DNA of 64,000 nt from Meira nashicola (lineage: Eukaryota > Basidiomycota > Exobasidiomycetes > Exobasidiales > Brachybasidiaceae), in the NCBI GenBank assembly GCA_001600355.1, contig BCJU01000001.1:3968013-4032012 (forward strand). The letters are read 5' to 3'. A program made the translations under genes and the position numbers. Below, piece after piece: positions 21,663 through 53,884 of the stretch. How positions within the stretch are numbered: position 1 is the stretch's first letter; the number at the start of each line of letters is the position of its first letter. The notes below the pieces were generated by a model. That model was not told where the DNA came from. It searched no databases and worked only from the letters and a program-made list of their open reading frames with translations.

Positions 21663-21909
21663 CTTTGTTAGAGGTATAAATGTAAAGAAGATGGTCAAGA
21701 GTTCACTTTGAGAATAGCTGGCATTCTTGTGTGAACAAAGTCAAACAACCGAACGGTACTCCGCCGCGTGTTTTTAGATCGCAGTCGGAATTCCGTCATA
21801 AGCGGAATCACTCCTTCCCAACTTGCGTGCGCTTATTCATCCGAGGTTAAAAGGAATGCAAGGCGTAAAGTGTATATATTCTATTAAAGGTTGTACACGA
21901 ATTAATTGT

Positions 21910-25943: not shown

Positions 25944-26368
25944 TTGATTGATTTTTCAAATGGGATGAGGTGGTGAAGAGAAAAGGGTGCGAATTTTATT
26001 TGGGTCAGCATTCAATTCAAATCATCAAAAGGCGTAAGTACTATCTTCGGAACGATATTAAATCACTTAGGCACAGATCGTTAATATGCAGGCCGAATGA
26101 TCTTCTGACTACTTTAATTCATTCTTCACCCTAGATGAAACTGATCTGATCCCAAATTTCGCCGCCATTAAAAGCTCGGACCGCGTTTCGCATATTATCA
26201 CTAAAAGTGGCTTGATTTTTTTTTCACAAGCACAATCACAATGCGGCTTAATTTTTTTTCAATGAAAATCAAAATGAAAATTTCAAAAAGGTATCTGAAT
26301 AGCTTTTAGACCATAAGGGTCTGTGTAGGTAGGTCTGTGTGAATTTGTTTTTAAAAAAATGGCAAACT
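25944..26368. other. Intergenic, seven-helix gene upstream region
   Basis: It contains two similar poly-T elements, CTTGATTTTTTTTTC near 26211 and CTTAATTTTTTTTC near 26247. Each is preceded by a GTGGC or GCGGC. Nothing else is recognisable. Confidence 0.4.
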
Positions 26369-36680: not shown

Positions 36681-37925
36681 ATGATGCTACATGCAAGCGC
36701 AGTTGCAGGAGCTTGTGCTGGACTTGTATCATCCATCGTTACTTGTCCTTTAGATGTTGTCAAGACAAAATTACAAGCCCAAAGCGGACCATCAAGACCT
36801 TTACGATCAGGATGGAGCGGACCAGCGGGACATCCAAATGGCGGAATAGGAGGCGGTGCGGCGAGGGAAGCATGGGAGAAGAATTTACATGATCAAGCAC
36901 GAGCGAAAGGTGTTTCAGTAGCAGAGATCAGTAGCCAATATGAAGGTTTATCAGGTACAATGCGTAAAATTTGGACAGAAAACGGAGTAAAAGGTTTCTA
37001 TAGAGGTCTAGGGCCAACAATCTTCGGTTATTTACCAACATGGGCAATCTACTTTACAGTGTATGATCAATGCAAAACATTTCTTGCTTCGAATTTCAAC
37101 CCAACCGGAGAGGAAGACTTTATCAATCATATCTTGAGCGCAATGACTGCTGGAATGGTGAGCACTACTTGTACAAGTCCGTTATGGGTCGTCAAAACGA
37201 GGTTTATGTTACAGTCCGTCAAAGATCCATCCACTCGACCCTACAGACATACAGGAGATGCATTCGTTCAGATATATCGCACAGAAGGATTACGAGGATT
37301 TTATAGAGGGTTGTTACCTAGCTTGTTTGGCGTGAGCCATGTAGCTGTACAATTTCCTTTGTACGAAAGCTTCAAGGCATGGGTACGAGAGCAGAATGAA
37401 AGCGACGAACTTACGCCTAGCGCAATTTTGCTTTGCAGTAGTGGAGCAAAAATGATCGCTTCAATGTTGACTTATCCACACGAAGTATTGAGAACGAGGC
37501 TACAGATGCAACCAAGAATTATCGGCTCAGTAGCATCATCACCAGTTGCTGCTCCAGCAAATGGAGGACTTGAAGGAAAGATTTCACATGAGAGTGGAAA
37601 GAGAACGATGCATACTCTGACCGGGATGAAAAATATTCAAGCAAGGCGGACAAGGCTTGTGCCACAATTGGGCAACAGACAGATATCTGGAATGGGAAAT
37701 GTTTCTGGACAAAGTGCAAATCGATATACTGGAGTTTTACAAGCATGTGCAACGATTGCTCGAGAAGAGGGGTTGAGAGGATTCTATAAAGGTATGGGAG
37801 TGAACCTTATTCGGACCGTTCCAAGTTCGGCATTAACGATCCTAACGTATGAAGTTATGATGCAACATTTGACAAATACCGATCACGAACAGGAAGAATT
37901 AAACGATCATAAAGATGAACGGTAA
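36681..37925 (+). CDS. Mitochondrial carrier, probable NAD+ transporter (Ndt1/Yia6-like)
   Basis: This 414-residue inner-membrane carrier has three repeats. The signature of repeat 1 is CPLDVVKTKLQAQ (residue 22), of repeat 2 SPLWVVKTRFMLQ, where Trp replaces the usual acidic residue, and of repeat 3 YPHEVLRTRLQMQ. The Trp variant, with LPTWAIYFTVYDQ and KMIASMLTYPHEVLRTR, is what I know from the yeast NAD+ carriers Ndt1/Yia6 and the related folate/FAD carriers. About 70 extra residues (roughly 275-345) sit in the third matrix loop. The protein begins almost at the first helix with a double Met at 36681, so a short upstream exon cannot be excluded. It would bring NAD+ into mitochondria; substrate is inferred from family position. 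Confidence 0.87.
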   Translation: MMLHASAVAGACAGLVSSIVTCPLDVVKTKLQAQSGPSRPLRSGWSGPAGHPNGGIGGGAAREAWEKNLHDQARAKGVSVAEISSQYEGLSGTMRKIWTENGVKGFYRGLGPTIFGYLPTWAIYFTVYDQCKTFLASNFNPTGEEDFINHILSAMTAGMVSTTCTSPLWVVKTRFMLQSVKDPSTRPYRHTGDAFVQIYRTEGLRGFYRGLLPSLFGVSHVAVQFPLYESFKAWVREQNESDELTPSAILLCSSGAKMIASMLTYPHEVLRTRLQMQPRIIGSVASSPVAAPANGGLEGKISHESGKRTMHTLTGMKNIQARRTRLVPQLGNRQISGMGNVSGQSANRYTGVLQACATIAREEGLRGFYKGMGVNLIRTVPSSALTILTYEVMMQHLTNTDHEQEELNDHKDER

Positions 37926-38408
37926 AGCACAGCGTTGCGTGCCGACGGCGTTTTTCTTATTTCATTTTCTCATTTCATTCATTTGTGTACCGCATTTTAC
38001 AGGATTTCACATTGTAGCAATTCAGCATTTATTTGTTTCGAAGAAAAAGAAGGATGGAGTGAATTTCAGAACCGACATGCCAAGGGCGGTAAAATGAAAG
38101 GAGTATGCGGTATGGATGTTTACAAGCCGAGAGTGGCGGGTAATAACATCATTCCGCGTGAGTCGGTTCTTGTGTACCCTTGTTTGGGGCATCCGCCTTG
38201 ACCCCCTAAACGATAATGTCGTTGATGGGATGGTATGAAAATATTTCAATTTGGTAAGAGTACTGCAGGAATGTTTGTATAAGTAACGGACGAAGTATGC
38301 ATCTGAACTTGAAAAGAATCAAATGGCAGGGTATAGATATGGACACTTTTTGTCTTTTTTGATGTTACAATGATCATTTTAACAACCCACTTTTGAATTT
38401 TAACCAAG
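37926..38408. other. Spacer before the secreted-protein array
   Basis: It holds the upstream sequence of array gene 1. The stretch at 38186-38212 (GGGGCATCCGCCTTGACCCC followed by CTAAACG) has a diverged copy upstream of gene 2 at 39432-39471. Near 38331 is GGGTATAGATATGGACAC, matched by GGGTATAAAATTGACCAC before gene 2. This indicates that promoters were duplicated together with the genes. Confidence 0.5.
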
Positions 38409-39233
38409 ATGAAATTCTCTCAAACTGCTTCTTTGATCTGTTTCTTTGTTATGGTGACTTTTGTCACTATGAATAATGCAATATCCACTTCTGGTTTAGT
38501 CAAACGTTCAGACGCCAGCACGTTTCAATCAATCGTGAATGAATTTGCTAAAATTGCAAATACGATTAAAGGATTAGAAGATTCTCAAAGAAATGCAGGT
38601 CAAACCAATCCACCTAATTTCCAATTAGCCGCAAAAGGTTTAGCTGAATTATCGATGGAAGCCGAATCAGCCGAAGTTCAATTACGTTCTCTTGGTAAAA
38701 AACAATTGGATTCTTCTTCATCACAAAGTATTGGTGGTTCAGTAAGTTCATCTGCTCAACATGCTACAGGAATTACAACAATGATAAAACAAGGAAAAGA
38801 TTATTTTGCAAAATATCACGTTACTCAAGTTGTTATTCAAATTTTGAAAGCAAATATTGCTCAATTCAAAAGTTTATATACCGAATTAAATCTTCACGTT
38901 AATAATGCAACTATAAGATCTTATTCGCCATCAGAAATTACATTCTTATGCAAAATGGTTGATGCAATTGCATATCTTGATACTAATCAAATTTCACCTG
39001 CTGAAAAATCTTACTGTGCAACTGGTAATCATGAAATCTTTGATCCAAGCCGATTTGGTGAAAGTGCAAACGGTCCTGAAGGTTATGATAGTTGTGGTAA
39101 TAGTCCAACTACATTCTTTAAAGAAGCTTATACTTCCGGTACATTGGGAACATCTTCAACTTCTTGCAATTCAGGCGTTCAAACTCCAAACAGTTTCTCT
39201 ATTCCATCAAACAGTTTAATGATTAAAAATTAA
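38409..39233 (+). CDS. Array gene 1 (subtype A): secreted protein of unrecognised family
   Basis: This 274-residue protein has a signal peptide (MKFSQTASLICFFVMVTFVT) and a Kex2-type Lys-Arg at residues 32-33. The mature part is mostly helical. Its blocks recur in all array members: an opening helix FQSIVNEFAKIANTIKGLEDSQ; GQTNPPNFQLAAKGLAELSMEAESAE; VVIQILKANIAQFKSLYTEL; FLCKMVDAIAYLD; AEKSYC; and YDSCGNSPTTFFKEAYTSGTLGT. It ends SFSIPSNSLMIKN. Conserved Cys in the CKMVDA, SYC, SCGNS and TSC positions could form two disulfides. It lacks the N-glycosylation site found before the VIQIL helix in other members. It is closest to gene 2. Secretion and Kex2 cleavage are predictions; function is unknown, with effector one possibility. 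Confidence 0.85.
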   Translation: MKFSQTASLICFFVMVTFVTMNNAISTSGLVKRSDASTFQSIVNEFAKIANTIKGLEDSQRNAGQTNPPNFQLAAKGLAELSMEAESAEVQLRSLGKKQLDSSSSQSIGGSVSSSAQHATGITTMIKQGKDYFAKYHVTQVVIQILKANIAQFKSLYTELNLHVNNATIRSYSPSEITFLCKMVDAIAYLDTNQISPAEKSYCATGNHEIFDPSRFGESANGPEGYDSCGNSPTTFFKEAYTSGTLGTSSTSCNSGVQTPNSFSIPSNSLMIKN

Positions 39234-39726
39234 AACAACTGTTTCTTCTCTTCTTATCCCTCCTTAAATGACTATGATTTTATCTTCTCTTATTTTATGC
39301 TTTATTTTTAGTGAAAAGATAGAGCTACTTGTCAACTTTGCTTATGGCTATCCTTTCTGCGGCCCGAAAAAATAAGAGCGGATATTTACGTGCCGAAAGC
39401 GATTGATAATGTCATTCTTGCTTTATTAAACGGGCATCCTTCCTACGGCCCTCCGCTTTGACTCCTAAACGCTGACAACTTGTTCCTTGAATCAAGATTT
39501 GCAAACGAATTGTCGGAGCGCCGTAGAATTTGTCTTCTTAGAGAAAAAAAAGGACTCAAAGGAAAATTAAGTAAATAAGAAAATATTTATAGTAACAAAC
39601 TTATAAAATACGGCGAACCGAAGTGTGAATGATAAAGAAGGAGTTGTAGGGTATAAAATTGACCACTTTTTGGATTTGAAGAACGATTTTGACATCATCC
39701 ATCACCCACTCTCAAATTCAGTCAAG
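39234..39726. other. Spacer between array genes 1 and 2
   Basis: It contains two related stretches, TATCCTTTCTGCGGCCC near 39350 and GCATCCTTCCTACGGCCC near 39434. The second continues into a copy of the promoter segment upstream of gene 1. GGGTATAAAATTGACCAC lies about 80 bases before the gene 2 start. Confidence 0.5.
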
Positions 39727-40548
39727 ATGAAATCCTTTCCAATCGTTACTCTTTTATGCTTTGTTGTTGTAACTTTTGTTACAATGATGAATGCAAAACA
39801 TTCTGCCCATTTAGCCAAAAGAACAGGATCATCTTCTTTTCAATCAATTGCAGAAGGATTTGCAAAGATTGCAGAAACGATTAAAGCTTTAGATGATGCA
39901 CAACAAGCTGCAGGTCAAAGTGGTACACCTGATTTCAGTAAAGCATCAAAAGGTTTAGCAGAACTATCAATGGAAGCAGAAGCAACAGAACATGAATTAC
40001 GTGCAATCGGAGTAGTAAAATTAGATGCTTCAACTTCTAAAAGTATTGCAACTTCTTTAACTTTATCTGCTCAATACGTTAAAGGAATTACTCAAATGAT
40101 TAAAATTGGTAAAGATTTTTTTGCAAAAGGAAATGCAACAATGACTGTTATTCAAATTTTAAAAGCAAATATTTCTCAATTTAAAAGTTTATTCACAGAA
40201 TTGGATAGACATGTTGACTTTGCTATTTTACGTTCTTATGCTCCTCAACAAATTATTTTCATTTGTAGTATCGTTGATGCAGTCGTTACTCTTGATCCTA
40301 AACAAATCTCTTCAGGTGCAAAAGAATTTTGTTCAAGCAAAAAGAGTGATTATTTCGATCCAAACGTTTTCGGTGGTTGTACAAACACTCCTAAAGGTTA
40401 TGGTAGTTGTGGAAATAGTCCAACAACATTTTATCAACAAGCTTATACTGCCGGTACAATGGGTTCCAATTCAACTTCTTGCACTTCAGCTCCTAAACCT
40501 CCAAAAAGTTTCGCAATTCCAGCAAATTGTTTATCGCACGGCAAATAA
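39727..40548 (+). CDS. Array gene 2 (subtype A): secreted protein
   Basis: This 273-residue protein has the signal peptide MKSFPIVTLLCFVVVTFVT and Lys-Arg at 31-32. The first helix (FQSIAEGFAKIAETIKALDDAQ), GQSGTPDFSKASKGLAELSMEAEATE and VIQILKANISQFKSLFTELDRHV make it the nearest relative of gene 1. NAT, a glycosylation sequon, precedes the VIQIL helix. The C-terminal signature is YGSCGNSPTTFYQQAYTAGTMGS, and the end is SFAIPANCLSHGK, with an extra Cys. I start at the ATG at 39727 because the frame upstream runs into a TATA-containing promoter. The two spacers share sequence, so genes 1 and 2 look like a tandem duplicate pair. Confidence 0.85.
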   Translation: MKSFPIVTLLCFVVVTFVTMMNAKHSAHLAKRTGSSSFQSIAEGFAKIAETIKALDDAQQAAGQSGTPDFSKASKGLAELSMEAEATEHELRAIGVVKLDASTSKSIATSLTLSAQYVKGITQMIKIGKDFFAKGNATMTVIQILKANISQFKSLFTELDRHVDFAILRSYAPQQIIFICSIVDAVVTLDPKQISSGAKEFCSSKKSDYFDPNVFGGCTNTPKGYGSCGNSPTTFYQQAYTAGTMGSNSTSCTSAPKPPKSFAIPANCLSHGK

Positions 40549-40987
40549 AATAAAAGTTTGTTGTTCATATTTAGCCCTCTAATTTCAATATCATACTTTA
40601 TGCTTCATTTAGGATAGTTAAGGTATGACGAGTGTTCCTTTAGAGTTGTTAGAGTATGACGAATTATAATGGTATATAATATAAAATGACGCATCAATTC
40701 AAATTCCGCTTTGCTGAATAAATGAGAATGCGAAGCGGAACACCGAAAAATGGCCATAAATCAACACCCCAGCTCATTTCAAAATTTATTCGGCGAACGA
40801 AAAAGAAATTAAGACGGCTATAATCTGTATATTTGGTATAATTAGGCGCCGGAACAGATATATGAGTGGAACTAAGTTTGAAATGTGACCCTTCCTTTGT
40901 TGGTTATAAAAACAAGCAAAAAACATAAACTTGATCCACTTTTATTCCCCAACACAAACAATTTTCTCTCTCACCCACTTCCACACA
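40549..40987. other. Spacer between array genes 2 and 3
   Basis: It includes GGCGCC at 40845-40850 and a GGTTATAAAAAC box near 40909. AAGCGGAA and TTCGGCG short motifs also occur. No gene. Confidence 0.45.
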
Positions 40988-41794
40988 ATGAAGCTAATCA
41001 ACTTCTTTGCCTTTTTTACAAGTTTCATTTTAGCATTTACTGCTATTTCAACTTTAGCAATCCCATACACTTTTGATAAACGTGATTCATCTATTGCTAC
41101 CACATTCAAGACAATTAGTCAAGTTATTGGTCAATTACAACAAGCTCAAGCAAGTGCAGGTCAAACAGGAACACCTGATTTTAGTAAAGCATCAGGATTA
41201 CTCGTTCAATTATCTCAACTTGCCGAATCAGCAGATTCATATTTAGTCGGATTAGGAAAAAACAAAGTAGATTATACTTCTGCTAATAGTATCGGTCAAT
41301 CTCTCGCCTCTTCAGCTCAAAGTGTTAGTTCAATCACTTCTTTAATTCAAAAAGGTAAACAATGGTTTGCAAAAAATAATGCAACTCAAAAAGTAATTCA
41401 AATCTTACAAGTTAATATTAGTCAATTTCATCAATTATTTGTTAATTTGAATAGTCATGTGGCTAGAGCTAATTCTTATGTACGTCATGAAAAACGTATC
41501 ATTTGTGCAATGGTTGATGCTATTGCAACTTTAGATCAAGGTCAAGCTTCTGCTGGGGCAAGAAACTTTTGCAATGTTGGCAGTGATGGCGGTGCATACG
41601 ATGATGATAAAGGTCTTGATGCATTCAATAACGGAGCCACTCCTACAGGTTATGAAACTTGTGGAAACAGTCCAACTATGTACTTCCAACAAGCTTATAC
41701 CAGTAAAACATTGGGTTCAAACGTTCAATGCCCTTCAACCCAAAAACCTTCTCCTAATTCATTCAAAGTGCCAAGCAACCCTTTATTACTCTGA
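40988..41794 (+). CDS. Array gene 3 (subtype A): secreted protein
   Basis: This 268-residue protein has a signal peptide (MKLINFFAFFTSFILAFTAI) with Lys-Arg at 31-32. It opens DSSIATTFKTISQVIGQLQQ and carries the subtype hallmark GQTGTPDFSKASGLLVQLSQ. NNAT precedes KVIQILQVNISQFHQLF, giving a glycosylation site in the conserved place. An acidic insert, GGAYDDDKGLDAFNNG, appears before YETCGNSPTMYFQQAYTSKT. The same insert is present in genes 4 and 6 and absent from 1 and 2, so genes 3, 4 and 6 form a closer set. The C-terminus is SFKVPSNPLLL. Four Cys in the mature part. The start at 40988 follows a CACACA leader. Confidence 0.85.
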   Translation: MKLINFFAFFTSFILAFTAISTLAIPYTFDKRDSSIATTFKTISQVIGQLQQAQASAGQTGTPDFSKASGLLVQLSQLAESADSYLVGLGKNKVDYTSANSIGQSLASSAQSVSSITSLIQKGKQWFAKNNATQKVIQILQVNISQFHQLFVNLNSHVARANSYVRHEKRIICAMVDAIATLDQGQASAGARNFCNVGSDGGAYDDDKGLDAFNNGATPTGYETCGNSPTMYFQQAYTSKTLGSNVQCPSTQKPSPNSFKVPSNPLLL

Positions 41795-42297
41795 TTCGAT
41801 CTTCTTATTCAGTTGAACAGGTAGCTCGTCATATCACTTCAGCCCTTTTAATTTCAAATTTTATTCTTTTAACATATTCATTTGGTGTGCCTAGATTATG
41901 ATTGTACCTTGCAGGAATGACCTAAGCACTTTAAATTTTCGATATACTGAGTTTCAAAATGATATAAAGTCAAACGACCCTTGACTAATTTCATAAACCC
42001 ATTCGGCGGAAATGTACTTATTTAAGCGAAAGAAGATTAAAGTGCCGGCGCCTTCATGTGATTATTCAAGATAGAAAGGTTATTATTTTTTTTGGCCGAA
42101 ATTGTTCTCATTCTTTAGTCATCATCACAATTGGGCGTCATCCATCACATACGTACGTAAAGAAGGACCTTGATGGTCAGACTTTAATTGAAAATGTGAC
42201 GTATTTTTTTTTGAAGGATTGTTGATTATAAAAGCAAGGTAAATTTTTGATTTGATTTATTTCTCTTCCCAACAACAACATCATCATCATAAACATC
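41795..42297. other. Spacer between array genes 3 and 4
   Basis: It holds GGCGCC at 42047-42052 and GGCGTCATCCATCA at 42134-42147, the latter nearly repeated upstream of gene 6. GATTATAAAAGC near 42224 is the likely TATA. No gene. Confidence 0.45.
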
Positions 42298-43119
42298 ATG
42301 AAGTTTATCAACATTTTTACCTTGTTTACAAGTTTCATTTTAACATTTGCCTACTCAACGCTGGCAATGCCATATCCTGCTTTAAACAACAAACGTGATT
42401 CTTCTATTGCAAACACGTTTAAAACGATTAATGATTTAATTAGCGAATTAAAACAAATTCAAGAAGCAGCAGGTCAAACAGGTACACCTGATTTCAGTAA
42501 AGCATCAGGTTATCTTGCTCAATTAGCACAAACTGCAGAATCAGCAGATTCATCTTTAGTTGCTTTAGGAAGTAATAAGTTAGATGATAGTTCTGCTAAT
42601 AGTATCGGTGGTTATCTCGCTTCTTCTGCTAAAAGTGTCGTTTCCATTACCGCTTTAATTCAAAAAGGTAAAGAATGGTTTAAACAAAATAATGCAACTC
42701 AAAAAGTTATTCAAATCTTACAAGCAAACATTGATCAATTTCATCAATTATTTATTGATTTAAATTCTCATACGCCTGGAACATATGCTTTGAATTATAA
42801 ACCTGATGAAACTCGTATCATTTGTTCAATGGTGAATGCTGTTGCCGCTTTAGATGCAAGTCAAGTTTATTCAAGTGCAAAGATTTATTGTAATGGTGGC
42901 AGTGATGGTGGTGCATATGATGATGATGAAAAAGGTCTTGATGCATTCAATAATGGTATCACTCCTTCAGGTTATAGTACTTGCGGAAACAGTCCTACAA
43001 ACTTCTTCCAACAAGCTTATACTACTAAAACTTTAGGCTCATCAAACACTCAATGCACTTCAACTCAACAACATTCTCCTAATTCTTTCAAAATTCCAAC
43101 AAATCCTTTGTTACTTTGA
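42298..43119 (+). CDS. Array gene 4 (subtype A): secreted protein
   Basis: This 273-residue protein has the signal peptide MKFINIFTLFTSFILTFAYS, Lys-Arg at 32-33, and DSSIANTFKTINDLISELKQ. The GQTGTPDFSKASGYLAQLAQ block, NNAT sequon and KVIQILQANIDQFHQLFIDL helix are as in gene 3. The insert GGAYDDDEKGLDAFNNG precedes YSTCGNSPTNFFQQAYTTKT. The end is SFKIPTNPLLL. It is followed by a subtype B gene (5). The same A-then-B order recurs as genes 6 and 7, so this is probably the first gene of a duplicated two-gene unit. No intron. Confidence 0.85.
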   Translation: MKFINIFTLFTSFILTFAYSTLAMPYPALNNKRDSSIANTFKTINDLISELKQIQEAAGQTGTPDFSKASGYLAQLAQTAESADSSLVALGSNKLDDSSANSIGGYLASSAKSVVSITALIQKGKEWFKQNNATQKVIQILQANIDQFHQLFIDLNSHTPGTYALNYKPDETRIICSMVNAVAALDASQVYSSAKIYCNGGSDGGAYDDDEKGLDAFNNGITPSGYSTCGNSPTNFFQQAYTTKTLGSSNTQCTSTQQHSPNSFKIPTNPLLL

Positions 43120-43499
43120 TCTGTATGGGGTGAGAGTGTTCATGAATATCTTCATTTGAAATTCATATATTTCCAAATCTTGCCTAGTAATATTCTCAAT
43201 CCAATAGAACTGTTAGGAGACCGTAATTAATTTGAGAAAAGTTGTGACTAGGGGGGGGGGGGGAGGCGTCAACTTACAAATCTATTCAGGAGACCGCGTT
43301 TGACAAACAATGGCACAGTATTTCCTTCTAATATACACATTTCAAACTCTCTCCTTAATTATACGGAGAAGATATTCCCTCTTTTAAAAGAAATGCAATG
43401 ATAAACATAAAAGGTATATAAACACATCATTTTGATAACAATTTGCAAACATCATCCATCAACACTTTTTCCAAGCAAATCTTATATCCAACAACAAAA
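43120..43499. other. Spacer between array genes 4 and 5 with 13-G tract
   Basis: A run of 13 G (43251-43263) is followed at once by AGGCGTC (43264-43270), another GGCGYC motif. GGTATATAAAC near 43413 is a good TATA about 85 bases before the start of gene 5. Confidence 0.55.
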
Positions 43500-44342
43500 A
43501 TGAAGATCAATCAATTGATTACCATTGCTGCACCTTTGACTTTATCATTGGTCAGTATGACAACAGCTGTACCATCTAAGGTATCAGCAACGAGCAAGAG
43601 GGAAAATACGCCAGTCTATATCGAATTCCAAGAAATTGCTCGTAAATTTGTCTTTTTTGATCTTTCCTTAAAAGCTGATAAGCCAGATTATAATCAATTA
43701 GCATATGACTTAAACGATATCTCGACAACTGCAGAAGCAGCATGGAGTTTATTACGTCAATCTAACAAAACTCAATTACAAGATCAAGAAGTAAGTACTA
43801 TCAGTGAAAATTTATCAAAGATTGCAAGTAAGTCAGGTTTAGTTGAAGCAATGGCAACTAAAGGTCAAGATTGGTACAAGGAAAATAAAGCAGTTGATAA
43901 AATTGCTCAAATCATTGAATTAAATGCTTTTGAATTTTATACTCTTTTTAGAGAATTTAAAAATTACGTTAATCAAACAACTTATTCACAATATGGTAAA
44001 GATTTCACAACTACAATTTGCGAATTTGTTACTGCAATTCACGTCCTTAACCCTAATACACCTGCTCAAAATAATGATGCATATGTTTATTGCGTGAATT
44101 ATAAAGCAGGAGCAAAAGGTAATTTAGCAAAAGATGACTTTAATATCAGTTCAATGACACCACCTGGAATGGAAACTTGCAGTAACCAAACAACAAGATT
44201 TTTGGATGCTGCTTATACGGAGCATACTCTTGGTACCGTTGTTACAAAATGCACTGCTAAGAATATTGGTATCTCGGGTCCCTCTTTGCCACAAGACGCT
44301 CTCGAAATAAGTCTTCCTCAAACAGCGAACAAGGCTAATTGA
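43500..44342 (+). CDS. Array gene 5 (subtype B): secreted protein
   Basis: This 280-residue protein has the signal peptide MKINQLITIAAPLTLSLVSM and Lys-Arg at 33-34. It differs from subtype A by KPDYNQLAYDLNDISTTAEAAWSLLRQ in place of the GQTGTPDFSKAS block. It has VDKIAQIIELNAFEFYTLFREF in place of the VIQIL helix, and an insert YCVNYKAGAKGNLAKDDF. The C-terminal signature is METCSNQTTRFLDAAYTEHTLGT, where Asn-Gln-Thr replaces Asn-Ser-Pro and makes a sequon. NQTTYSQYGKDFTTTICEFV aligns with the VxxYxxYGxSIxxxIC stretch of subtypes C and D. Its only close relative here is gene 7. The frame upstream of 43500 is open but lies in the promoter. Confidence 0.85.
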   Translation: MKINQLITIAAPLTLSLVSMTTAVPSKVSATSKRENTPVYIEFQEIARKFVFFDLSLKADKPDYNQLAYDLNDISTTAEAAWSLLRQSNKTQLQDQEVSTISENLSKIASKSGLVEAMATKGQDWYKENKAVDKIAQIIELNAFEFYTLFREFKNYVNQTTYSQYGKDFTTTICEFVTAIHVLNPNTPAQNNDAYVYCVNYKAGAKGNLAKDDFNISSMTPPGMETCSNQTTRFLDAAYTEHTLGTVVTKCTAKNIGISGPSLPQDALEISLPQTANKAN

Positions 44343-44912
44343 AGACTGTTCTTTTACCTACTTACTATATTATTACCTTAACAAGACTATATAAATACTA
44401 TTCTTCCACCTGCTTCCTTACTTCTTCCTGTCTTTACTCCCTTTTAATAAACCCTAATTTTATTCACTCCTATCCTTACTTCTTCCTGTCTTTACTCCTC
44501 TTTAATAAACTTCAATTTTATTCACTTGATCCTTTTTAGGTTAACTTGTCTGATTAATTTAGGATGTTGATTGATGATGTTGCCTTTTAGAATTATCGGA
44601 ACATGACGTAATAATTTGAATTTTGGAAATGACTGAAAGCGGACCGCTTTTGAGCATGCAAAAATTATGACAAATTCTATCGGGCAGAGGTCCGCTAAGG
44701 TGACAAAAACAGAATAAAGGCGCCTTTGTTATTGTTATTTGAGAAAACTTTCTCATTAATTTTTTCGGTCATCAGAATTTTGGCGTCATCGATCAGGAAC
44801 GTTTATAGTCGTTGATAGTGAAACTGAATTTGAAAAGAAGGCTCTATATAAGAGCTACAAAGCGGAAAAGAAATATAAAAAACTCCTCTAATTACTCACC
44901 ACACATCTCAAC
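44343..44912. other. Spacer between array genes 5 and 6
   Basis: It contains a 58-base tandem duplication (44416-44531) and the palindrome AAAGGCGCCTTT around 44719-44724. It also has GGCGTCATCGATCA at 44782-44795 and a TATA set in a perfect inverted repeat, GCTCTATATAAGAGC (44841-44855), about 60 bases before the gene 6 start. Confidence 0.5.
44416..44531. repeat. 58-base tandem duplication
   Basis: Copies start at 44416 and 44474, each opening CCTTACTTCTTCCTGTCTTT. They differ at a few positions. They lie just after the stop of gene 5, in its probable 3' untranslated region. Confidence 0.8.
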
Positions 44913-45731
44913 ATGAAGAACATCAACTTTTTTACCCTATTGACAACTTTCTTTTTGGCATTTGCTATTTCAACTTTAGCAATTCCATACAACACTTTTG
45001 AAAAACGTCATTCATCTATTGCAACTTATTTTGAAAGTATCAGTGAATTGATCGCTAAATTACAACAAGCTCAAGCAAGTGCAGGCCAAACAGGAACTCC
45101 TGATTTTAGTAAAGCATCAGGTTTACTCGTTCAATTTTCTCAAACAGCTGAATTAGCCGATTCAGCTTTGGTTGGATTAGGACGTAAAGGTTTAACTTAT
45201 AACTCTACTAAAAGTATTAAAGCATCATTAAAGTCATCTGCTTCAAACGTTCATTCAATCACTTCTTTAGTACAAAAAGGAAAAGAATGGTTTGCAAAGA
45301 ATAATGTAACTGAAAAAGTTATTCAAATCTTACAAGCAAATATTGATCAATTTCATCAATTATTTAACGATTTAAACTTTCACGTTTCGGATAAAGTTTT
45401 CAATTCTTACGTACATTATGAAAGAAGGATTCTTTGTTCAATGGTTGATGCAATTCTTACTTTAGATCCAAAACAAGTTTCTGCAACAGCAAAATCCGTT
45501 TGCAGTGGTGGTGGTGATGGCGGTGTATATGATGATGATATAAATGGTCTTGATGCGTTTAACAATGGAATCACTCCTGCAGGTTATGAAACTTGTGGAA
45601 ATAGTCCAACCATGTTCTTCCAACAAGCATATACCAGTAAAACATTAGGATCATCAAACACTAAATGTTCTCCAGGTCAAACTGCTTCTCCTCAAACTTT
45701 CAGAGTTCCAAGTAATCCTTTGTTACTGTGA
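44913..45731 (+). CDS. Array gene 6 (subtype A): secreted protein
   Basis: This 272-residue protein has the signal peptide MKNINFFTLLTTFFLAFAIS and Lys-Arg at 31-32. HSSIATYFESISELIAKLQQ and GQTGTPDFSKASGLLVQFSQ place it with genes 3 and 4. NNVT before EKVIQILQANIDQFHQLF keeps the glycosylation site although the surrounding residues changed. GGVYDDDINGLDAFNNG and YETCGNSPTMFFQQAYTSKT follow, with the end TFRVPSNPLLL. It sits between two subtype B genes, which argues for duplication of an A-B pair rather than single-gene steps. Confidence 0.85.
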   Translation: MKNINFFTLLTTFFLAFAISTLAIPYNTFEKRHSSIATYFESISELIAKLQQAQASAGQTGTPDFSKASGLLVQFSQTAELADSALVGLGRKGLTYNSTKSIKASLKSSASNVHSITSLVQKGKEWFAKNNVTEKVIQILQANIDQFHQLFNDLNFHVSDKVFNSYVHYERRILCSMVDAILTLDPKQVSATAKSVCSGGGDGGVYDDDINGLDAFNNGITPAGYETCGNSPTMFFQQAYTSKTLGSSNTKCSPGQTASPQTFRVPSNPLLL

Positions 45732-46118
45732 TAGTGTTTTGTGACTTCTTCTTTAGCTTTAATCGTATAATTCCGTCTATGACGTTAGTAGTGATAGTAT
45801 TCCGATGGATAATATCAGAATTATGAGCAGGTTTGTTTATAACTCCGTCATTTATTTATTTATTGGTGGTATTCCGACGACAAATAATAATAAAGATGGG
45901 CGCAATATAAGCGGGTACAAATAATGAGTGGCTTCGGAATGACCTTTGGAAATGACCTTAATGAAAGTAAAAACAGAAGTACTCTCAAATGAGAGTCTGT
46001 GCATTTCTATTGATTTTCATAGCCTTTGTGAAAGGTATATAAACTCGCTTATTTTATAGACAAAGATAGAAACGCAACCTCATCAACCTCAACACTGTAA
46101 ACAAATATCAACATCAAC
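45732..46118. other. Spacer between array genes 6 and 7
   Basis: Its length (387 bases) is close to that of the gene 4-5 spacer (380), as expected if the A-B pair was copied as a unit. GGTATATAAACTC near 46034 resembles GGTATATAAACAC before gene 5. No gene. Confidence 0.45.
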
Positions 46119-46979
46119 ATGAAGATTTCTCAATCTCTTATCATCTTTACTGCTTTGAGCATTTTAATGGTCAGTTTGACTAATGCAGCTCCCTATGAAG
46201 CTATTCAAAAACGAGAAGATACACCAGTTTGGGTGGAATTCAAAGATTTGGCAAGTACGTTTACCGAATTTCAATCTAGTGAATCAAGTGCTTCACCAGA
46301 TTATAATCATTTAGCGTACGATTTAAATGATTTATCAACAACTGCGGATGCAGCTTATAGCTTATTACGTAAGATGGGTAAAACTCAATTAACTTCTAAC
46401 AATGGTCAAAGTACAGGTAAAAGTTACACAGTTACTGATGACATTACAGAAATCAAGGAAAGTTTAGCCACTTTTGCTTCAGCATCAAGTTCAGTAGAAG
46501 AAATGGCAGTAAAGGGAAAAGTTTGGTATGAAGAAAAACAAGTTGTTGGAAAGATTTCTCAAATTTTAGAATTGGACGCATTTCAATTTTATATTCTCTT
46601 TAAAGAATTAAAAAATCATGTTAATCAAACAATTTATTCCGAATTCGGTAAAGATATGAGTACAACTTTATGCGGTTTCGTCAACGCAATCGAAATTATT
46701 GAACCAAATACATTCGGTAGTAACAAATCAGCATATACGTACTGTGTCAATTATAAAGCAGGATTACGTGGTAATCTCGCTACAGATGGATTTGATATCA
46801 ATTCAGTTGCACCACCTGGAATTGATAGTTGTGGAAACAGTGCTTCAAGATTCTTGGATGCTGCTTATTCAGAAGGTACTCTCGGTTCAACAGTAACAAA
46901 ATGCACTGAAAAGAATGTTGGTATTATTGGTCCTTCATTGCCAAAGAATGCTCTCGGTTTGAAAGAATGGAAAAATTGA
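46119..46979 (+). CDS. Array gene 7 (subtype B): secreted protein
   Basis: This 286-residue protein has the signal peptide MKISQSLIIFTALSILMVSL and Lys-Arg at 31-32. SPDYNHLAYDLNDLSTTADAAYSLLRK and YCVNYKAGLRGNLATDGFDINSVAPPG match gene 5 closely. An extra Ser/Thr-rich insert (NNGQSTGKSYTVTDD) lies near residue 90. The C-terminal signature is IDSCGNSASRFLDAAYSEGTLGS, followed by CTEKNVGIIGPSLPKNAL, like gene 5. A glycosylation sequon NQT occurs at the start of NQTIYSEFGKDMSTTLCGFV. Function unknown. Confidence 0.85.
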   Translation: MKISQSLIIFTALSILMVSLTNAAPYEAIQKREDTPVWVEFKDLASTFTEFQSSESSASPDYNHLAYDLNDLSTTADAAYSLLRKMGKTQLTSNNGQSTGKSYTVTDDITEIKESLATFASASSSVEEMAVKGKVWYEEKQVVGKISQILELDAFQFYILFKELKNHVNQTIYSEFGKDMSTTLCGFVNAIEIIEPNTFGSNKSAYTYCVNYKAGLRGNLATDGFDINSVAPPGIDSCGNSASRFLDAAYSEGTLGSTVTKCTEKNVGIIGPSLPKNALGLKEWKN

Positions 46980-47672
46980 TTTTAAATGCTTTATCAAGCA
47001 TACTTTTCACCAATTAATTCTTTTCGCTCTTATAAATCATGTTATTAGCCCTTTCCGCTCATATAATTCAAATAATCAACCCTCTTCGCTCATATAATTC
47101 ATATAATTAAATGATTCATTTTGCCCCTTTCATTTAACCGATCGAGACTGAATAGTATATCTTTAGGTTTTTAGACTCCGAACTGATGTGGAACGTTGGC
47201 AAAACAACTAACTTTGGCGCCAATATGTCTTCATTGATTGATTGTTATACGCAAATGTTGTTGAATTGTATATCATTAATATTGTTTAGGCTCCGAGCTG
47301 ATGTCGAACGTTGGCAAAACAACTAACTAATTTCGGCGCCGATAAATATTTATTAATTGTTGTACGCAAATGGTGTTTAGATTATATCTTTTATTAATCT
47401 TTTGCGGAGTACTATTCACCGTCGACCTACTTCATTTTATATGTTTACGGGTTTCCGAGGTTCATTGAAGTGGAGCGTTAATTTGATAAGTTGACTCATT
47501 TCCTATTGATAGAAAGGTACTCCGTTTTTGCCTTCATAATGAAGTTTGACAATTATGTTTTGGAATTTGATTGTTGAATAGAAAATATATAAAACACCCC
47601 ATTCTTCTTTCTGGTAGGAGACCTCTTTCCCATTAACCCGTTTTCATCATCATCTTCTTAACCCTTATAAAA
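46980..47672. other. Spacer between array genes 7 and 8
   Basis: It starts with short near-repeats of CGCTCATATAATTCA (about 47050-47105) and then the roughly 104-base direct repeat (47171-47388). AAAATATATAAAACACC near 47582 is the likely TATA of gene 8. No gene. Confidence 0.5.
47171..47388. repeat. Direct repeat of about 104 bases, two diverged copies
   Basis: Copies run about 47171-47274 and 47286-47388. Shared parts include AACGTTGGCAAAACAACTAA, a GGCGCC palindrome (47216-47221 and 47335-47340), and a closing TACGCAAATG…TATATC. The palindromic cores, TTGGCGCCAA and TCGGCGCCGA, differ but stay symmetric, which hints at selection for a dimer-binding site. Confidence 0.75.
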
Positions 47673-48497
47673 ATGAGAAAGTCAAACATCTTTACCTTGT
47701 TGACAATTTTAGCAACAATGCTTATTAGCTTTACTGTTGCAATGCCCTTCCAATCAAGTATGGAAGAAAGATCAACGACAACAGCCAACAAACCAGTCTA
47801 TTTGACATTCAAAGAAATTACTCAAATCATTGTTCAATTAGATCAAGCTCAAGACAGTCCTGCTCCAGCTGGAGCTCCGAATTTTAATGCTAGTGCATAT
47901 TTACTTAATCAATTATCTTTAAAAGCCGAAGAAGCAACAAGTTTATTACAACAAATGGGAAGTGATCAATTGGATGATGAAAGTATTACTGATATCTGTA
48001 GCAGTTTAAGCATTTCAGCTGAACATGTTGTCGCAATCACAAGAATGGTTGAACAAGGAAAAGATTGGTTTGCACAACATAAAGTAACTTCAAAAGTCGT
48101 TCAAATCTTACAATTGAATGCATATCAATTTTCCGCTTTGTTTACTGAGTTGGAAAAACACGTTCCTCCTACTGTTTATGGAGAGTATGGAAGAAGTATT
48201 ACCAATTTCTTATGTTCGATCATCAATGCTATCGAATATCTCGATCCAAACGCATGTGCACCTGAAGGTAAACAATTCTGTGATAGTTGTCAACAAGATC
48301 AATCACAATATTATCAAGGTGATTCATATGATTATACTCAATTAGCACCACCCGGAATGGATTCATGTGATTACAGTTCAAATTCATACTTGCAATGTGC
48401 TTATGAACAACAAACACTTGGTACGCAAGATACAACTTGTGCTTATGCAATCATTTCCGTCACTTTCGAATTACCCCAAAACGCTTTATGTTTGTGA
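47673..48497 (+). CDS. Array gene 8 (subtype C): secreted protein
   Basis: This 274-residue protein has a signal peptide (MRKSNIFTLLTILATMLISF). In place of the Lys-Arg of genes 1-7 it has Glu-Glu-Arg. It mixes features: FKEITQIIVQLDQAQ and SKVVQILQLNAYQFSALFTEL recall subtype A, while VYGEYGRSITNFLCSIINAIEYLDP leads to subtype D. CDSCQQDQSQYYQGDSYDYTQ is a private acidic/Gln insert. The C-terminal signature is MDSCDYSSNSYLQCAYEQQTLGT, with Gly-Asn lost and an extra Cys. The end is FELPQNALCL. It looks intermediate between the A/B and D groups. Confidence 0.85.
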   Translation: MRKSNIFTLLTILATMLISFTVAMPFQSSMEERSTTTANKPVYLTFKEITQIIVQLDQAQDSPAPAGAPNFNASAYLLNQLSLKAEEATSLLQQMGSDQLDDESITDICSSLSISAEHVVAITRMVEQGKDWFAQHKVTSKVVQILQLNAYQFSALFTELEKHVPPTVYGEYGRSITNFLCSIINAIEYLDPNACAPEGKQFCDSCQQDQSQYYQGDSYDYTQLAPPGMDSCDYSSNSYLQCAYEQQTLGTQDTTCAYAIISVTFELPQNALCL

Positions 48498-48976
48498 TCA
48501 AAGCTACAAATGTAGTTATGATGAAATGAAATCTGATTTGCCCCTTGAATGAATGTATGCATGTATGCGTGTGTGCGCGGCAAAACGAGTCTTCCTTTCG
48601 TGCGATATCTCCTTCCGAAACACAATCCTCTCCCACTTTAGGATGGACACCTTTGTACGCGCGCGCTGCGCTTCCATCCTTCTTCCTACCTATCATGGAT
48701 GGATGAAAAGAAGGAAGGAAGGAATGTGAAGTACAAATACAAGTCATCGGAATTCCTCATCTACCTTTTCGGTTATGATCAAGGAGGGGAAAATGTAAGT
48801 AAAGGGTAAAAAGCGGAATATGACACTGCCACGAAAAAGGCTGAAATATCATTTAGCAAGCGCTAATTACGGAAGTGGAATCCGCAAATTAAAAGGTATT
48901 TAAAGAAGACAAAAAATTCATTTTAATCTCTTTCGTAACCCACAACCATCCACCACAAAGAACAATTCGATCAAAA
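48498..48976. other. Spacer between array genes 8 and 9
   Basis: It contains an ATGTATGC microsatellite (about 48550-48572), the GC island ACGCGCGCGCTGCGCTT (about 48657-48673) and a GGAA-rich run (about 48707-48724). AAAAGGTATTTAAAG near 48892 is the probable TATA of gene 9. Confidence 0.45.
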
Positions 48977-49963
48977 ATGAAATCCTCCTCTTTCTTTGCT
49001 TTTATTCCTTTCCTCTTTGTGCTCTTTTTGGGTACAGTACAATGTCTTCCATGGAACGATTATCATCCAAAAGTGACTCCACCACCAATCAGTAAACCAA
49101 TCTCGAGTTATTTCGTGGAAATTGATACAATCATTACCCGTTTAGCCACTTGGACTCCAAGTGATAAATCATCCGATTTCCCAGGAGCAGAAAAAGATCT
49201 TTTTCAACTCGGTCAATCGATCGATCAAGCAACCCAAGCATTAAAGGCTTTCAATGGTACAATTGATTATCAAAATTTGATCAAAATTGATACAACACTT
49301 AAATCAAGTTCCAAAAATGTTGTCAAGATTACCAAAAATGTTAAAGCAGCAAAAGAAGTTTTTGTAAAATACAATTATACAACTTTGATCGTTCAAGTTT
49401 TACAAGCAAGTGCAAATCAGTTTTCAGTCTTATTCCCACTTTTGGAATCTCATTCACCTCCAGCTTCTTTTGCTTCTTTGGGTTATTCTATCAGTTTGAT
49501 CATTTGTTCGATCGGTGATTCGATCGAATATTTGCAACCACATTCATGCACACCTGAAGGATTAAAATTCTGCAAATCATTGAAGCACAGTAAAGCAGGT
49601 TCAATTGATACCAAGCCTGCTTGTCAAGTTGTCAAACCTTCCGATTCATTCTCTCAATGCAACAATAGTTCAACAACTATGTTCAAATACGGTTATGAGA
49701 ATTCTTGCATCGGTAAACCACAAACAGGAGCATGGTGTGACAAAGGTACAAAAACAGGATCTGAATCTGGTCAAGAAGGTCAATCTAGCTCAAGTTCAAC
49801 TGTTAGTCAATCATCAAGCAAATCTTCAAGTTATGTTCCAGGATCAAGCAATGGCGCTGAAAGCTACTCTTTTAGCTCACACTTTGAAGTTGACATCAAT
49901 ATCGTCTTTGGTTATACGCCTGCCCAAAGTCAATTGTATACAGTTTGCAATCCACCAAAGTGA
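48977..49963 (+). CDS. Array gene 9 (subtype D): secreted protein with Ser-rich tail
   Basis: At 328 residues this is the longest member. The signal peptide (MKSSSFFAFIPFLFVLFLGT) ends before CLPWNDY and there is no Lys-Arg. ISSYFVEIDTIITRLATW opens the mature part. NYTTLIVQVLQASANQFSVLF keeps both helix and sequon. FASLGYSISLIICSIGDSIEYLQPHSCTPEGLKFC matches genes 10 and 11. The signature is changed to SFSQCNNSSTTMFKYGYENSCIG and is followed by WCD. A Ser-rich linker (SSSSTVSQSSSKSSS) leads to a C-terminal stretch with HFEVDINIVFGYTPAQ. The Ser-rich part may be O-glycosylated. Function unknown. Confidence 0.85.
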   Translation: MKSSSFFAFIPFLFVLFLGTVQCLPWNDYHPKVTPPPISKPISSYFVEIDTIITRLATWTPSDKSSDFPGAEKDLFQLGQSIDQATQALKAFNGTIDYQNLIKIDTTLKSSSKNVVKITKNVKAAKEVFVKYNYTTLIVQVLQASANQFSVLFPLLESHSPPASFASLGYSISLIICSIGDSIEYLQPHSCTPEGLKFCKSLKHSKAGSIDTKPACQVVKPSDSFSQCNNSSTTMFKYGYENSCIGKPQTGAWCDKGTKTGSESGQEGQSSSSSTVSQSSSKSSSYVPGSSNGAESYSFSSHFEVDINIVFGYTPAQSQLYTVCNPPK

Positions 49964-50284
49964 ACCATTAGCCTCAGAAGGGGAGTTTCTCTCTCCTCCT
50001 CCGCCTATCACTTTTCAAGTAAATATTTTGTAGACACCCTTTTCTTATTGTTGTGGACAATGTGTCTAGAATCATCTTTATGAATATTCATGAATTTACG
50101 CAAAACATCGTAAGCGCCCTTGACATGAAATTCACTTGAAAGTTAATTATTGTGCCCTAATTGATCGTCTCATTTGGTAAAAAAATTTAACGGCCCGCTT
50201 CTCAGGTACATACGTAATCCGTAACTAAATGCTTGTAAAGGTATTCTCCCTCTCTTTATTATATACTATCACAGCATTGACAAG
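49964..50284. other. Spacer between array genes 9 and 10
   Basis: Short AT-rich spacer with TATATACTATC near 50261. No gene and no GGCGYC motif that I found. Confidence 0.4.
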
Positions 50285-51121
50285 ATGAAGACAACAACAA
50301 TTTTTGTAACAGTGTTTATGTTTATGCTGATTAACATTATCAATGCAATTCCAACGACAAGCGAAACATGTCCGATCCCAAAGACGAATACTCCTATTCC
50401 AGCTTATTTTAAGGAGATGAACAAGATTTTAAAGTTGTTATCGGTTTTTGAACCATATTCCGATGCTAGACCAGCTAATGCAACATTTGAAAGATCAGCA
50501 AAACGTTTATTCAAATTAGCTCAAACTATCGATCAAGCAAGTCAAATTTTAAATGAAGAAAAAGGACATCTTGATAGTTCAAGTTTAAAATCAATCGATC
50601 GTTCACTTGGATTGAGTGCTGCTTATGTTGTTAATATAACTGAATTAGTCAAATATGGTAAACCTTTATCGGATAAATACAATTATACAACTATGAACGT
50701 TCAAATCATTCAAGGTGTAACAAGTCAATATTTAACTTTATTTAAAGCTTTGATCGTTCATGTTCCCCAAGATAACGTTGCTTTTAATTCAATCACTCAT
50801 TCTATGGCTTCAATCATTTGTTCTTTAGTTCAAACTATGGAATACCTACAACCTGGCGCATTCTCAAAAGAGGGAAAAGAAATTTGTCAAAATTTAAACA
50901 ACGCAAACCCTGAACAAGTGTTTTGCATTTTCACTCCTCCTTCTGCTTTTACACAATGTGGCTATAGTGCAACTGCTATGTTTAATTACGGTATTGATAA
51001 TAATTTGATGGGTAAACAAGTGCAACCTTCATCCGATTGGTGTCCTTCTAACAGCAGCAGCAGTTCATCAGTATGTACTTATCATCCTTCTTGTGCATTT
51101 TCACATTCATCCAATTGGTGA
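50285..51121 (+). CDS. Array gene 10 (subtype D): secreted protein
   Basis: This 278-residue protein has the signal peptide MKTTTIFVTVFMFMLINIIN and no Lys-Arg site. IPAYFKEMNKILKLLSVF, LFKLAQTIDQASQILNEEKG and YAVNIT-type blocks align with gene 9. NYTTMNVQIIQGVTSQYLTLF holds the conserved sequon, and a second NIT sequon lies just before it. SIICSLVQTMEYLQPGAFSKEGKEIC keeps the paired Cys. The signature is AFTQCGYSATAMFNYGIDNNLMG, then DWCPSNSSSSSSVC. The Ser run is much shorter than in gene 11. The end CAFSHSSNW lacks the hydrophobic finish of subtype A. Confidence 0.85.
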   Translation: MKTTTIFVTVFMFMLINIINAIPTTSETCPIPKTNTPIPAYFKEMNKILKLLSVFEPYSDARPANATFERSAKRLFKLAQTIDQASQILNEEKGHLDSSSLKSIDRSLGLSAAYVVNITELVKYGKPLSDKYNYTTMNVQIIQGVTSQYLTLFKALIVHVPQDNVAFNSITHSMASIICSLVQTMEYLQPGAFSKEGKEICQNLNNANPEQVFCIFTPPSAFTQCGYSATAMFNYGIDNNLMGKQVQPSSDWCPSNSSSSSSVCTYHPSCAFSHSSNW

Positions 51122-51702
51122 TCAATCGCTGTAAGAATTCTATCCTCCTCATCTCACCCGCTGAATTAAGCTAATGAATTATGTTGTTCATATTCTGAAA
51201 AGAGTGTTTCATATTCTAGTTCCTCTTTAAAGTACGCCAAATAAGCGAAATTAAGCATTCTTGTTTGCTAATGAACAATACGGTGGACTTTCTTTTGAGA
51301 ATATTGAAAATGCGAAATTGAAGTCTAAAATTCTTATTCTTTCTTCTTCTTTGTTCGCGGAAGTGCGCCAACGCGGTGGCCGTTCGGCGTTATTATACTT
51401 ATCATTTGACATGGATTCGTACGGCGTAAGATCGCAGTTCTAAAATTCGTTGATTGTTAGTCTCGTTATCAATCATCTTCATACAAAATTTTGGCGTCGG
51501 AGGGGCTGAAAAGTTGCACACTACCGCCCAATGGATTCTCATTTGCGCCCGGATTGATTTTGTTGTATAATATACCTTCCGACGTAACAAATTGAGGATA
51601 AGCAAAGATGTTTTTTAGTCTATATAAAGAGAATGTTTTGAGCAAAACAGTTTATTTTTTTCCTTCAGCAAACTTCATTATTGCTCCATCCCCCTTTTCA
51701 TC
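51122..51702. other. Spacer between array genes 10 and 11
   Basis: It has a GGCGTC at about 51492, CTATATAAAG near 51620 (TATA) and TGTTTTGAGCAAAACA at 51634-51649. The last is a palindrome with 7-base arms, sharing its 12-base core with the repeat cluster at 14.3 kb. Confidence 0.5.
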
Positions 51703-52685
51703 ATGAAATTCTTCAATTTATTCACGCTTTCTTTGGTTGGACTCTCTGTTTTAATTGGATCATCAATTGCATGCGATAAATGCGATCTTACTGCAGCACA
51801 AAATGCTGGAGTACCAGTCAATAAGCACGTTTATATTTATTTTCGTGAAATTGCACAAATTATTAAAGAATTAGCTTCTGCTCAATCTTCTGCAAACGTT
51901 CAAGGTCCACCTGATTTCAGTCAAGCAGAAAAAGGTTTATTCTCTTTAGGTAAAACAATTGAACAAGCGAACAAGCAAGTAAAGTTTTACAAGTTTATCA
52001 AGGTACTTTAGACGATAATAATGCAAATCATATTAATAAATACCTTGCTTGGTCAGCAAAAGATGTTGTTACAATTACAACAATGATTAAATATGCTAAA
52101 CCTTATTCTGATAAACAAGGTTATACAGGTATCATCGTTCATATCTTACAAGGAATCACTTCTCAAATTTCAATTTTATTTCAAGAATTAGAAATGCATA
52201 TGCCTTCTTCTGTTTATGCATCTTCAAGTTATAGTATCAGTGTCTTTATTTGTGCAATGGCAGATGCTATTGAATATTTACAGCCTTACACTTGCTCAAA
52301 TCAAGGTAAACAATTTTGTGCAAATTTAGCAAGACAAAGTTCAAATTCTTGTGGAACGAAAGAATATAGGAAAAAATGTTCAAATGTGGTTAAAGTACCA
52401 AAATCATTTAAACAATGCGGTAATAGTGCAACTTCAATGTACGAATATGGTTATAAAAATAAATGCTTAGGTTCAAAAAAACATAAGAAGGATTGGTGCC
52501 ATGACAAGAAGAAGAAACATGCAAAAGTACACAGTCATTCATCTTCAACAAAGAGCTCAAGTTCATCTTCAAGTTCGTCTTCAAGCTCTAGTTCATCTTC
52601 AACTCAATACTCTTATTCTTATTCTACTTGTTTTACCTACACTCCTACTCCAAGTGATTGGTATTGCACAAACAGCAGCTATTAA
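51703..52685 (+). pseudogene. Array gene 11 (subtype D): broken by an 8-base tandem duplication
   Basis: The first frame starts at the ATG at 51703 with a signal peptide (MKFFNLFTLSLVGLSVLIGS) and YIYFREIAQIIKELASAQ. It reads correctly as far as LFSLGKTIEQA. There the 8-mer GAACAAGC occurs twice in a row (51961-51968 and 51969-51976), shifting the frame to an early TAG. The family sequence resumes at once in another frame and continues intact to 52685 (DVVTITTMIKYAKPYSDK, GYTGIIVHILQGITSQISILF, SFKQCGNSATSMYEYGYKNKCLG). It ends with a run of about 17 Ser and SYSYSTCFTYTPTPSDWYC. No intron fits. The rest is undamaged, so the break is recent, polymorphic or an assembly error. Confidence 0.85.
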
Positions 52686-52963
52686 AACACACACACACTC
52701 TTTCTTTATGATTTATATCTTTCCTTGTCTCTTATTTCTTCACAGAACATTAACAAACATCTTATATCCATCTGAATCAATGACATCCATTCCCCTCTTT
52801 ACGTGTTTTACGTATGTACCCCGCGTTTATTTTTATTACCGGCAATAAATTTCCTCTAGCCCGGTTTGCCGATACACTTAGAAAAGAACGGGCTACTTTG
52901 AATAAAATAAGTAGACTAACTCTCTCTTTCTTCAACACTATCACAAACACACACACGCCAAAA

Positions 52964-53884
52964 ATGTCAAAAATAGAAACATTACCGGATTTAAGTCATA
53001 GAACTTTATTCGATTTAAAGGGAAAAGTGATCGTTGTAACTGGAGGTGGAACAGGATTAGGATTTATGATGTCAACTGCATACGTTCAAAGTGGCTGTGA
53101 AAGGATTTATATTTGTTCAAGAAAGATGAAAAATTTAGAAAAAGCAGCAAATTCACTTAATTCGATTAAAGCAGGAGTTTGCATTCCTTTAGAAGCTGAC
53201 CTTACAGATGCAAAAGGCTGTAAACAATTAGGAGAAGAAATCGCAAAAAGAGAAAAAAAGATTCACGTTTTAGTAAACAATAGTGGCGTTTCTTGGGCTG
53301 CACCAATTGATAAATTTGATGAAGAAAAAGGATGGGATAGATTATTGGCTGTCAATGTGAAAAGTTTATTTTACCTTACAGTCGCTCTTTTACCTTTACT
53401 CAAAAAAGACGCAAATATAGATAATCCTGCAAGTGTTATTAATATTTCTTCCATTTATGCTTCTTTACCATTACCAAATATGCCTTCTGCTCCAATCGGA
53501 ACTGGCGGTTGGAGTTATTTGGCATCAAAAGCAGCCGTTAGTCATTTAACAAGAACCATGGCTGCAAATTTAAAACCATCTCACGTAAACGTCAATGCAA
53601 TTGCACCCGGCTATTTCCCTAGCAACATGACTTCCTTTGCTGAAGGAAATATACTAGATCGTTCACAACCTGCTGGTAGACAAGGAACACCGGCTGATAT
53701 GGCAGGTCCAGCTCTTCTTTTAGCCGGAAGAGGTGGTGCACATCTAAGTGGTGTCGTATTGGGAACAGATGGTGGAATTCTATCACAAAATTTCAAAGCA
53801 CTTCCTAATAATATCTCTAGTCGTTGGCTACCGGAAGGATGGAGAACGGCAGAAGACGTTCGATCAGGTAAAAGCAAGCTTTAA
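52964..53884 (+). CDS. Short-chain dehydrogenase/reductase (SDR)
   Basis: This 306-residue NAD(P)-dependent oxidoreductase has the nucleotide-binding motif VTGGGTGLG (residues 25-33). NNSGVSWAAP stands for the NNAG motif. The catalytic Ser is in INISSIYAS, and Tyr and Lys are in WSYLASKAAV. The motif after the active site is APGYFPSNM. LEADLTDAKG near 80 and the GTPADMAGPALLLAGRGG / LGTDGG end are typical of classical SDRs. The pattern is close to the fungal RhlG-like or 3-oxoacyl reductase-like group; the substrate cannot be told. The ATG at 52964 is preceded by a CACACA leader, and the frame upstream lacks conserved residues. Single exon; no signal peptide, so cytosolic. Confidence 0.88.
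   Translation: MSKIETLPDLSHRTLFDLKGKVIVVTGGGTGLGFMMSTAYVQSGCERIYICSRKMKNLEKAANSLNSIKAGVCIPLEADLTDAKGCKQLGEEIAKREKKIHVLVNNSGVSWAAPIDKFDEEKGWDRLLAVNVKSLFYLTVALLPLLKKDANIDNPASVINISSIYASLPLPNMPSAPIGTGGWSYLASKAAVSHLTRTMAANLKPSHVNVNAIAPGYFPSNMTSFAEGNILDRSQPAGRQGTPADMAGPALLLAGRGGAHLSGVVLGTDGGILSQNFKALPNNISSRWLPEGWRTAEDVRSGKSKL

Follow-up and report, generated by a model that had tools for sequence, protein, structure and literature searches.

What do eleven neighbouring genes for related, putatively secreted proteins do in a Meira fungus, and do they amount to a system of their own? The question is raised by a 64,000-nucleotide stretch of Meira nashicola contig BCJU01000001.1 (assembly GCA_001600355.1, positions 3,968,013 to 4,032,012; hereafter the window), in which a sequence-only reading had singled out a tandem array at positions 38409-52685 as an unrecognised secreted family, a likely effector cluster and a candidate for an undescribed system. 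An origin of the DNA in a basidiomycete of the smut subphylum was supported. The array is real and lineage-specific, yet it belongs to a known fold class and is not a new system; its products are, on balance, probably extracellular fatty-acid- or lipid-binding proteins with the predicted Mp1p/HsbA five-helix-bundle fold, encoded by genes arranged in tandem. No literature on this array was found among the titles and abstract beginnings of one library.

Predicted fold of the array proteins

Sequence searches left the family without a name: in a scan of 10 window proteins, no Pfam family scored above cut-off, and NCBIfam yielded scattered single-member matches only, with expectation values (E) of 0.0028 or worse. 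A housekeeping family was rejected on these two results. Other weak Pfam rows (DUF3450, 0.011; cytochrome b562, 0.038) concerned one protein each and were taken as chance, and a profile search against the PDB returned chance-looking rows only (designed helical proteins, integrin, EsxA; E 0.026 or worse).

It is the predicted fold that makes the family recognisable. The predicted models of genes 1 and 5 (two of the eleven) adopt a Mp1p/HsbA-type five-helix bundle of ~150 residues, and amphipathic helices are conserved in the array family. Of the eight best structure matches, six have titles that name an Mp1p or Afmp4p domain together with palmitic or arachidonic acid. Compared with these ligand-binding domains of Talaromyces marneffei Mp1p and Aspergillus fumigatus Afmp4p, the array proteins show 7-14% identity, consist of one such domain followed by a C-terminal tail in which cysteines are conserved, and are encoded in a basidiomycete by an eleven-gene tandem. 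The same fold is found in g7941 of the nematode-parasitic ascomycete Drechmeria coniospora (PDB 6zpp), at 7-15% identity. The family is thus no longer unrecognised, and the idea of an undescribed system falls with the fold class being known already. The array, overlooked by searches on sequence, extends the Mp1p/eFbp fold class to a basidiomycete that lives as an epiphyte; in a structure-based survey of orphan candidate effectors from fungi, basidiomycetes are named among the lineages yet to be included (PMC10462633).

Probable extracellular lipid capture

A functional parallel is offered by eFbp1-4 (UP1-UP4) of the non-pathogenic yeast Yarrowia lipolytica: these proteins reportedly bind fatty acids outside the cell and have been suggested to carry them to it (PMC9526294). 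Like the array, they are lineage-specific secreted paralogues, and their nearest solved structures, as given in Table 5 of that paper, are identical to those found here; they differ in length (223-226 amino acids versus 268-328 here) and in number (four genes versus eleven). None of the seven eFbp sequence motifs occurs in any of 17 sequences (10 from the window, 7 others), so that the array proteins are like eFbp in fold, and perhaps in role, and not as members of that family. On Tween40, Meira miltonrushii is among the phylloplane species that become filamentous; a second Meira strain kept its yeast form throughout (PMC7766764). Lipid sensing or use in the genus is at most plausible. Since the nearest structures hold fatty acids, eFbp proteins are reported to bind them and lipid use by Meira is plausible, extracellular lipid capture is the favoured function. 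For an orphan secreted array, this provides a hypothesis that biochemistry can test, namely fatty-acid binding.

Such capture might proceed in the following manner: each mature protein would take up an acyl chain into the hydrophobic interior between its helices, and disulfides presumed to form between conserved cysteines would pin the C-terminal tail. Different acyl chains may be covered by the diverged paralogues, and lipids of the leaf cuticle or of arthropod surfaces could be solubilised and delivered to the fungal cell, by analogy with the proposal for Yarrowia eFbp. A bolder version, which we hold to be rather unlikely, is that, alongside Mp1p-type moulds and Yarrowia, a third lineage has independently turned this bundle into a secreted repertoire for lipid capture: an eleven-gene, disulfide-pinned Meira array with paralogue-specific ligands, which would remove cuticle lipids or host-signal lipids from the surface of leaves or mites, perhaps with far fewer copies in M. 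miltonrushii.

Organization of the array

Ten intact intronless open reading frames (ORFs) and one gene split across two frames lie on the plus strand; the intact ORFs encode 268-328 amino acids, counted from the ATG (n = 10). The locus reads as follows (clades refer to the tree described below):

36681-37925: mitochondrial carrier gene, upstream flank
38409..39233, plus: gene 1, 274 amino acids, clade A; AlphaFold model a five-helix bundle over residues 36-190 with a cysteine-containing tail
39727..40548, plus: gene 2, 273 amino acids, clade A; 67% identity to P0003 of M. miltonrushii
40988..41794, plus: gene 3, 268 amino acids, clade B
42298..43119, plus: gene 4, 273 amino acids, clade B
43500..44342, plus: gene 5, 280 amino acids, clade C; second AlphaFold model, with the predicted fold of gene 1
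44913..45731, plus: gene 6, 272 amino acids, clade B
46119..46979, plus: gene 7, 286 amino acids, clade C; insertion between helices 2 and 3
47673..48497, plus: gene 8, 274 amino acids, grouped with clade C; extra cysteines
48977..49963, plus: gene 9, 328 amino acids, clade D; Ser-rich C-terminal extension
50285..51121, plus: gene 10, 278 amino acids, clade D; long branch
51703..52011, plus: N-terminal half of gene 11, with the leader and the first helices; the frame changes after it
52083..52685, plus: gene 11, C-terminal half in the other frame; Ser-rich tail, Cys-Gly-Asn-Ser (CGNS) present
52814-53884: short-chain dehydrogenase (SDR) gene, downstream flank
53944-55350: phosphodiesterase gene, flanking

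Eleven consecutive same-strand intronless genes had been claimed; this holds for the ten intact ORFs and fails for the eleventh, whose halves lie in different frames. Residues 16-93 of gene 9 match the first frame of gene 11 and residues 75-313 the second, so homology continues uninterrupted across the frame change; this is better explained by a small difference in length, whether genuine or introduced in assembly, than by an intron, which is not favoured. That no other gene type interrupts the array was borne out, as no further ORF of at least 150 amino acids is listed between the carrier and SDR genes apart from the downstream half of gene 11. GC content is 0.33-0.38 in the bins of 38001-52000, against 0.41-0.43 in the two bins directly upstream and 0.41-0.45 from position 54001 onwards; a comparable dip occurs at 20001-26000, and low GC is therefore not peculiar to the array. 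Upstream of the genes, shared 8-mers and 9-mers stay within the range of 10 shuffles. The maximum sharing of 10-mers (7 of 11 genes) does not exceed that in shuffles either; 12 such words were counted versus 0-10 in the shuffles, which leaves room for a weak shared promoter element.

Hydrophobic N-terminal leaders, judged by eye, are present in all eleven genes, in keeping with the signal peptides noted earlier. Genes 1-7 (7 of the 10 intact genes) carry a Lys-Arg pair within residues 31-34, after the leader, which we take to be a Kex2-type processing site. The spaced cysteines were likewise recovered: C181, C203 and C229 (gene 1 numbering) do not vary when the 10 intact genes are aligned, nor do they, together with C253, in the 18-row and 17-row alignments; in the 10-gene alignment, a gap shifts C253 in genes 9 and 10. 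The C-terminal Cys-Gly-Asn-Ser-type signature stands in part, the exact tetrapeptide occurring in seven of the eleven genes and variants (CSNQ, CDYS, CNNS, CGYS) at the same place in the other four.

Structural cell-wall or antigen-like proteins, which would keep the fold without any lipid role, are a highly improbable alternative. The Ser-rich tails of genes 9-11 would suit them, as would the naming of one of 24 HsbA relatives as cell wall galactomannoprotein; against this, visual inspection of the last 25 residues showed no glycosylphosphatidylinositol (GPI)-type hydrophobic tail in any of 17 sequences (10 from the window, gene 11 excluded, and 7 others).

Relation to HsbA

HsbA (PF12296) has a Pfam gathering score of 33.5 bits, which none of 10 window proteins reaches; gene 9 is the sole match, at 17.7 bits. 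Among four outside relatives tested, P0007 and P0009 match at 16.4 and 16.1 bits, whereas P0003 and P0005 do not. The likeness to HsbA thus consists of weak, overlapping profile matches in 3 of 14 array-family proteins scanned; the difference is that these lie below the curated cut-off and that two members above it are encoded elsewhere in the genome. A profile-profile comparison with a 14-row HsbA alignment gave Prob 21.8 (P 0.00098) with leaders kept, and Prob 1.9 once they were removed (score 20.5, equalled by 1 of 200 column shuffles; reversed profile 12.1), so that part of the similarity stems from the leader. A shallower HsbA profile (six own-genome ORFs, two over the cut-off) gave Prob 1.1 and 1.7 and was not used as support. 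Common descent of the array with HsbA/Mp1p is likely, resting mainly on the fold.

Should the array proteins act as HsbA-type surface proteins, they would cover hydrophobic surfaces, cuticle among them, and bring in esterases or cutinase. The weak HsbA profile matches would suit such a role. HsbA is reported to bind polyester and recruit CutL1 (PMC9394342), HsbA and cutinase genes to be co-expressed in Venturia (PMC9632046), and the genome itself holds two cutinase-family matches. Both of these lie on other contigs (C3, C4), however, and the subthreshold array scores contrast with the two over-cut-off members elsewhere; such a role is quite unlikely.

Of the HsbA members proper, one (75.8 bits; L012:786-1304) lies at most 1.4 kb from the end of contig C2. 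Separate from the array, a second cluster on contig C1 at ~1,188-1,198 kb (L013-L015) contains small secreted-looking HsbA-related ORFs (175-182 amino acids, five read), with one further match inside it (E 0.001) and one on C5 (E 0.03).

Paralogy and distribution

The genome (17.88 Mb, 20 contigs) was searched with genes 1, 9 and 5. Gene 1 recovered the array alone, with 11 matches all inside it (E 4e-177 to 2.6e-15), as expected of paralogues of one family; no convincing member was found outside, the best outside matches having E 0.08 (gene 9 query) and 0.43 (gene 5 query), and the array is therefore far beyond chance. Direct links between the most distant pairs are weak, gene 5 reaching genes 9 and 11 at E 0.012-0.013 with gene 10 unlisted. 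Pairwise identity varies widely, with values of 15-72% among the 45 pairs of intact genes. A midpoint-rooted tree of 17 rows, from which gene 11 was left out, resolves clades A (genes 1, 2), B (3, 4, 6), C (5, 7, with 8) and D (9, 10); in the search with gene 9, gene 11 ranks first after the query itself (44% identity). Clade A includes both M. miltonrushii proteins and clade D a metagenome protein with 68% identity to gene 9.

A profile of ten array proteins, run against 4093 database candidates limited to relatives sharing short words, found 10 proteins, three of which (P0001, P0002 and P0008) duplicate window proteins or represent fragments of them. The two species-named matches are both from M. 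miltonrushii and of clade A, in agreement with a lineage-restricted, putatively secreted tandem family; no Exobasidium protein is among the 10 matches of this word-limited search. Genes 1 and 2 share 57-67% identity with the M. miltonrushii proteins, versus 90% for the flanking phosphodiesterase, which has a 52% relative in Exobasidium rhododendri. The M. miltonrushii counterpart of the phosphodiesterase and both M. miltonrushii array proteins lie on contigs of equal length (806,927), from which we infer that synteny at the array locus is conserved with M. miltonrushii. As only two proteins, both of clade A, were found there, the array may have expanded here or been reduced in that species. 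Salivary FTSP genes of whiteflies reportedly came from Meira-like fungi by horizontal transfer (PMC10583550).

Are the array proteins effectors?

As host-directed effectors, the proteins would sequester plant or mite/insect lipid signals (oxylipin/eicosanoid precursors), with the array diversifying under host pressure. Ustilago-type smut effector clusters are tandem secreted paralogues, which the array resembles in this arrangement and in being lineage-restricted; it differs in that Meira is so far known as non-parasitic and in that no Pfam family is found above cut-off. The fold is shared with Mp1p, reported to sequester arachidonic acid, and with g7941, whose bundle is counted among broadly conserved orphan candidate-effector families (PMC10462633), and genes 1 and 2 diverge faster than one flanking gene. 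Non-synonymous divergence (dN) is nevertheless below synonymous divergence (dS) in all 45 pairs of intact genes (e.g. 0.19 vs 0.49 for genes 3 and 4), though many pairs are near saturation, and gives no gene-wide sign of positive selection; positive selection as proof of effectors was rejected on this ground. In addition, Meira is described as known solely from a haploid, non-parasitic stage, parasitism not being ruled out (PMC13010171), the 13 other Talaromyces Mp1p homologues reportedly do not act as virulence factors, and a connection between fatty-acid binding and virulence is questioned in the same paper (PMC5488042). We regard an effector function as unlikely. Of the effector-cluster interpretation, the lineage-restricted, putatively secreted tandem family stands; the role itself is not implied by this anatomy, as a family predicted to share the fold reportedly binds extracellular fatty acids in a yeast that is not a pathogen (PMC9526294). 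Tandem secreted arrays should not be called effectors without structure.

Other ORFs of the window

At 19336-21698, adjacent minus-strand ORFs resemble pieces of one prolyl-oligopeptidase-type peptidase, either a broken gene or one with introns; the one piece scanned gave a weak, sub-cut-off S9 N-terminal match. Three further ORFs (24031-25548, 29241-30320 and 33787-34923) have no Pfam family at E 0.001; by eye, one contains several hydrophobic stretches and two have hydrophobic leaders near the N-terminus.
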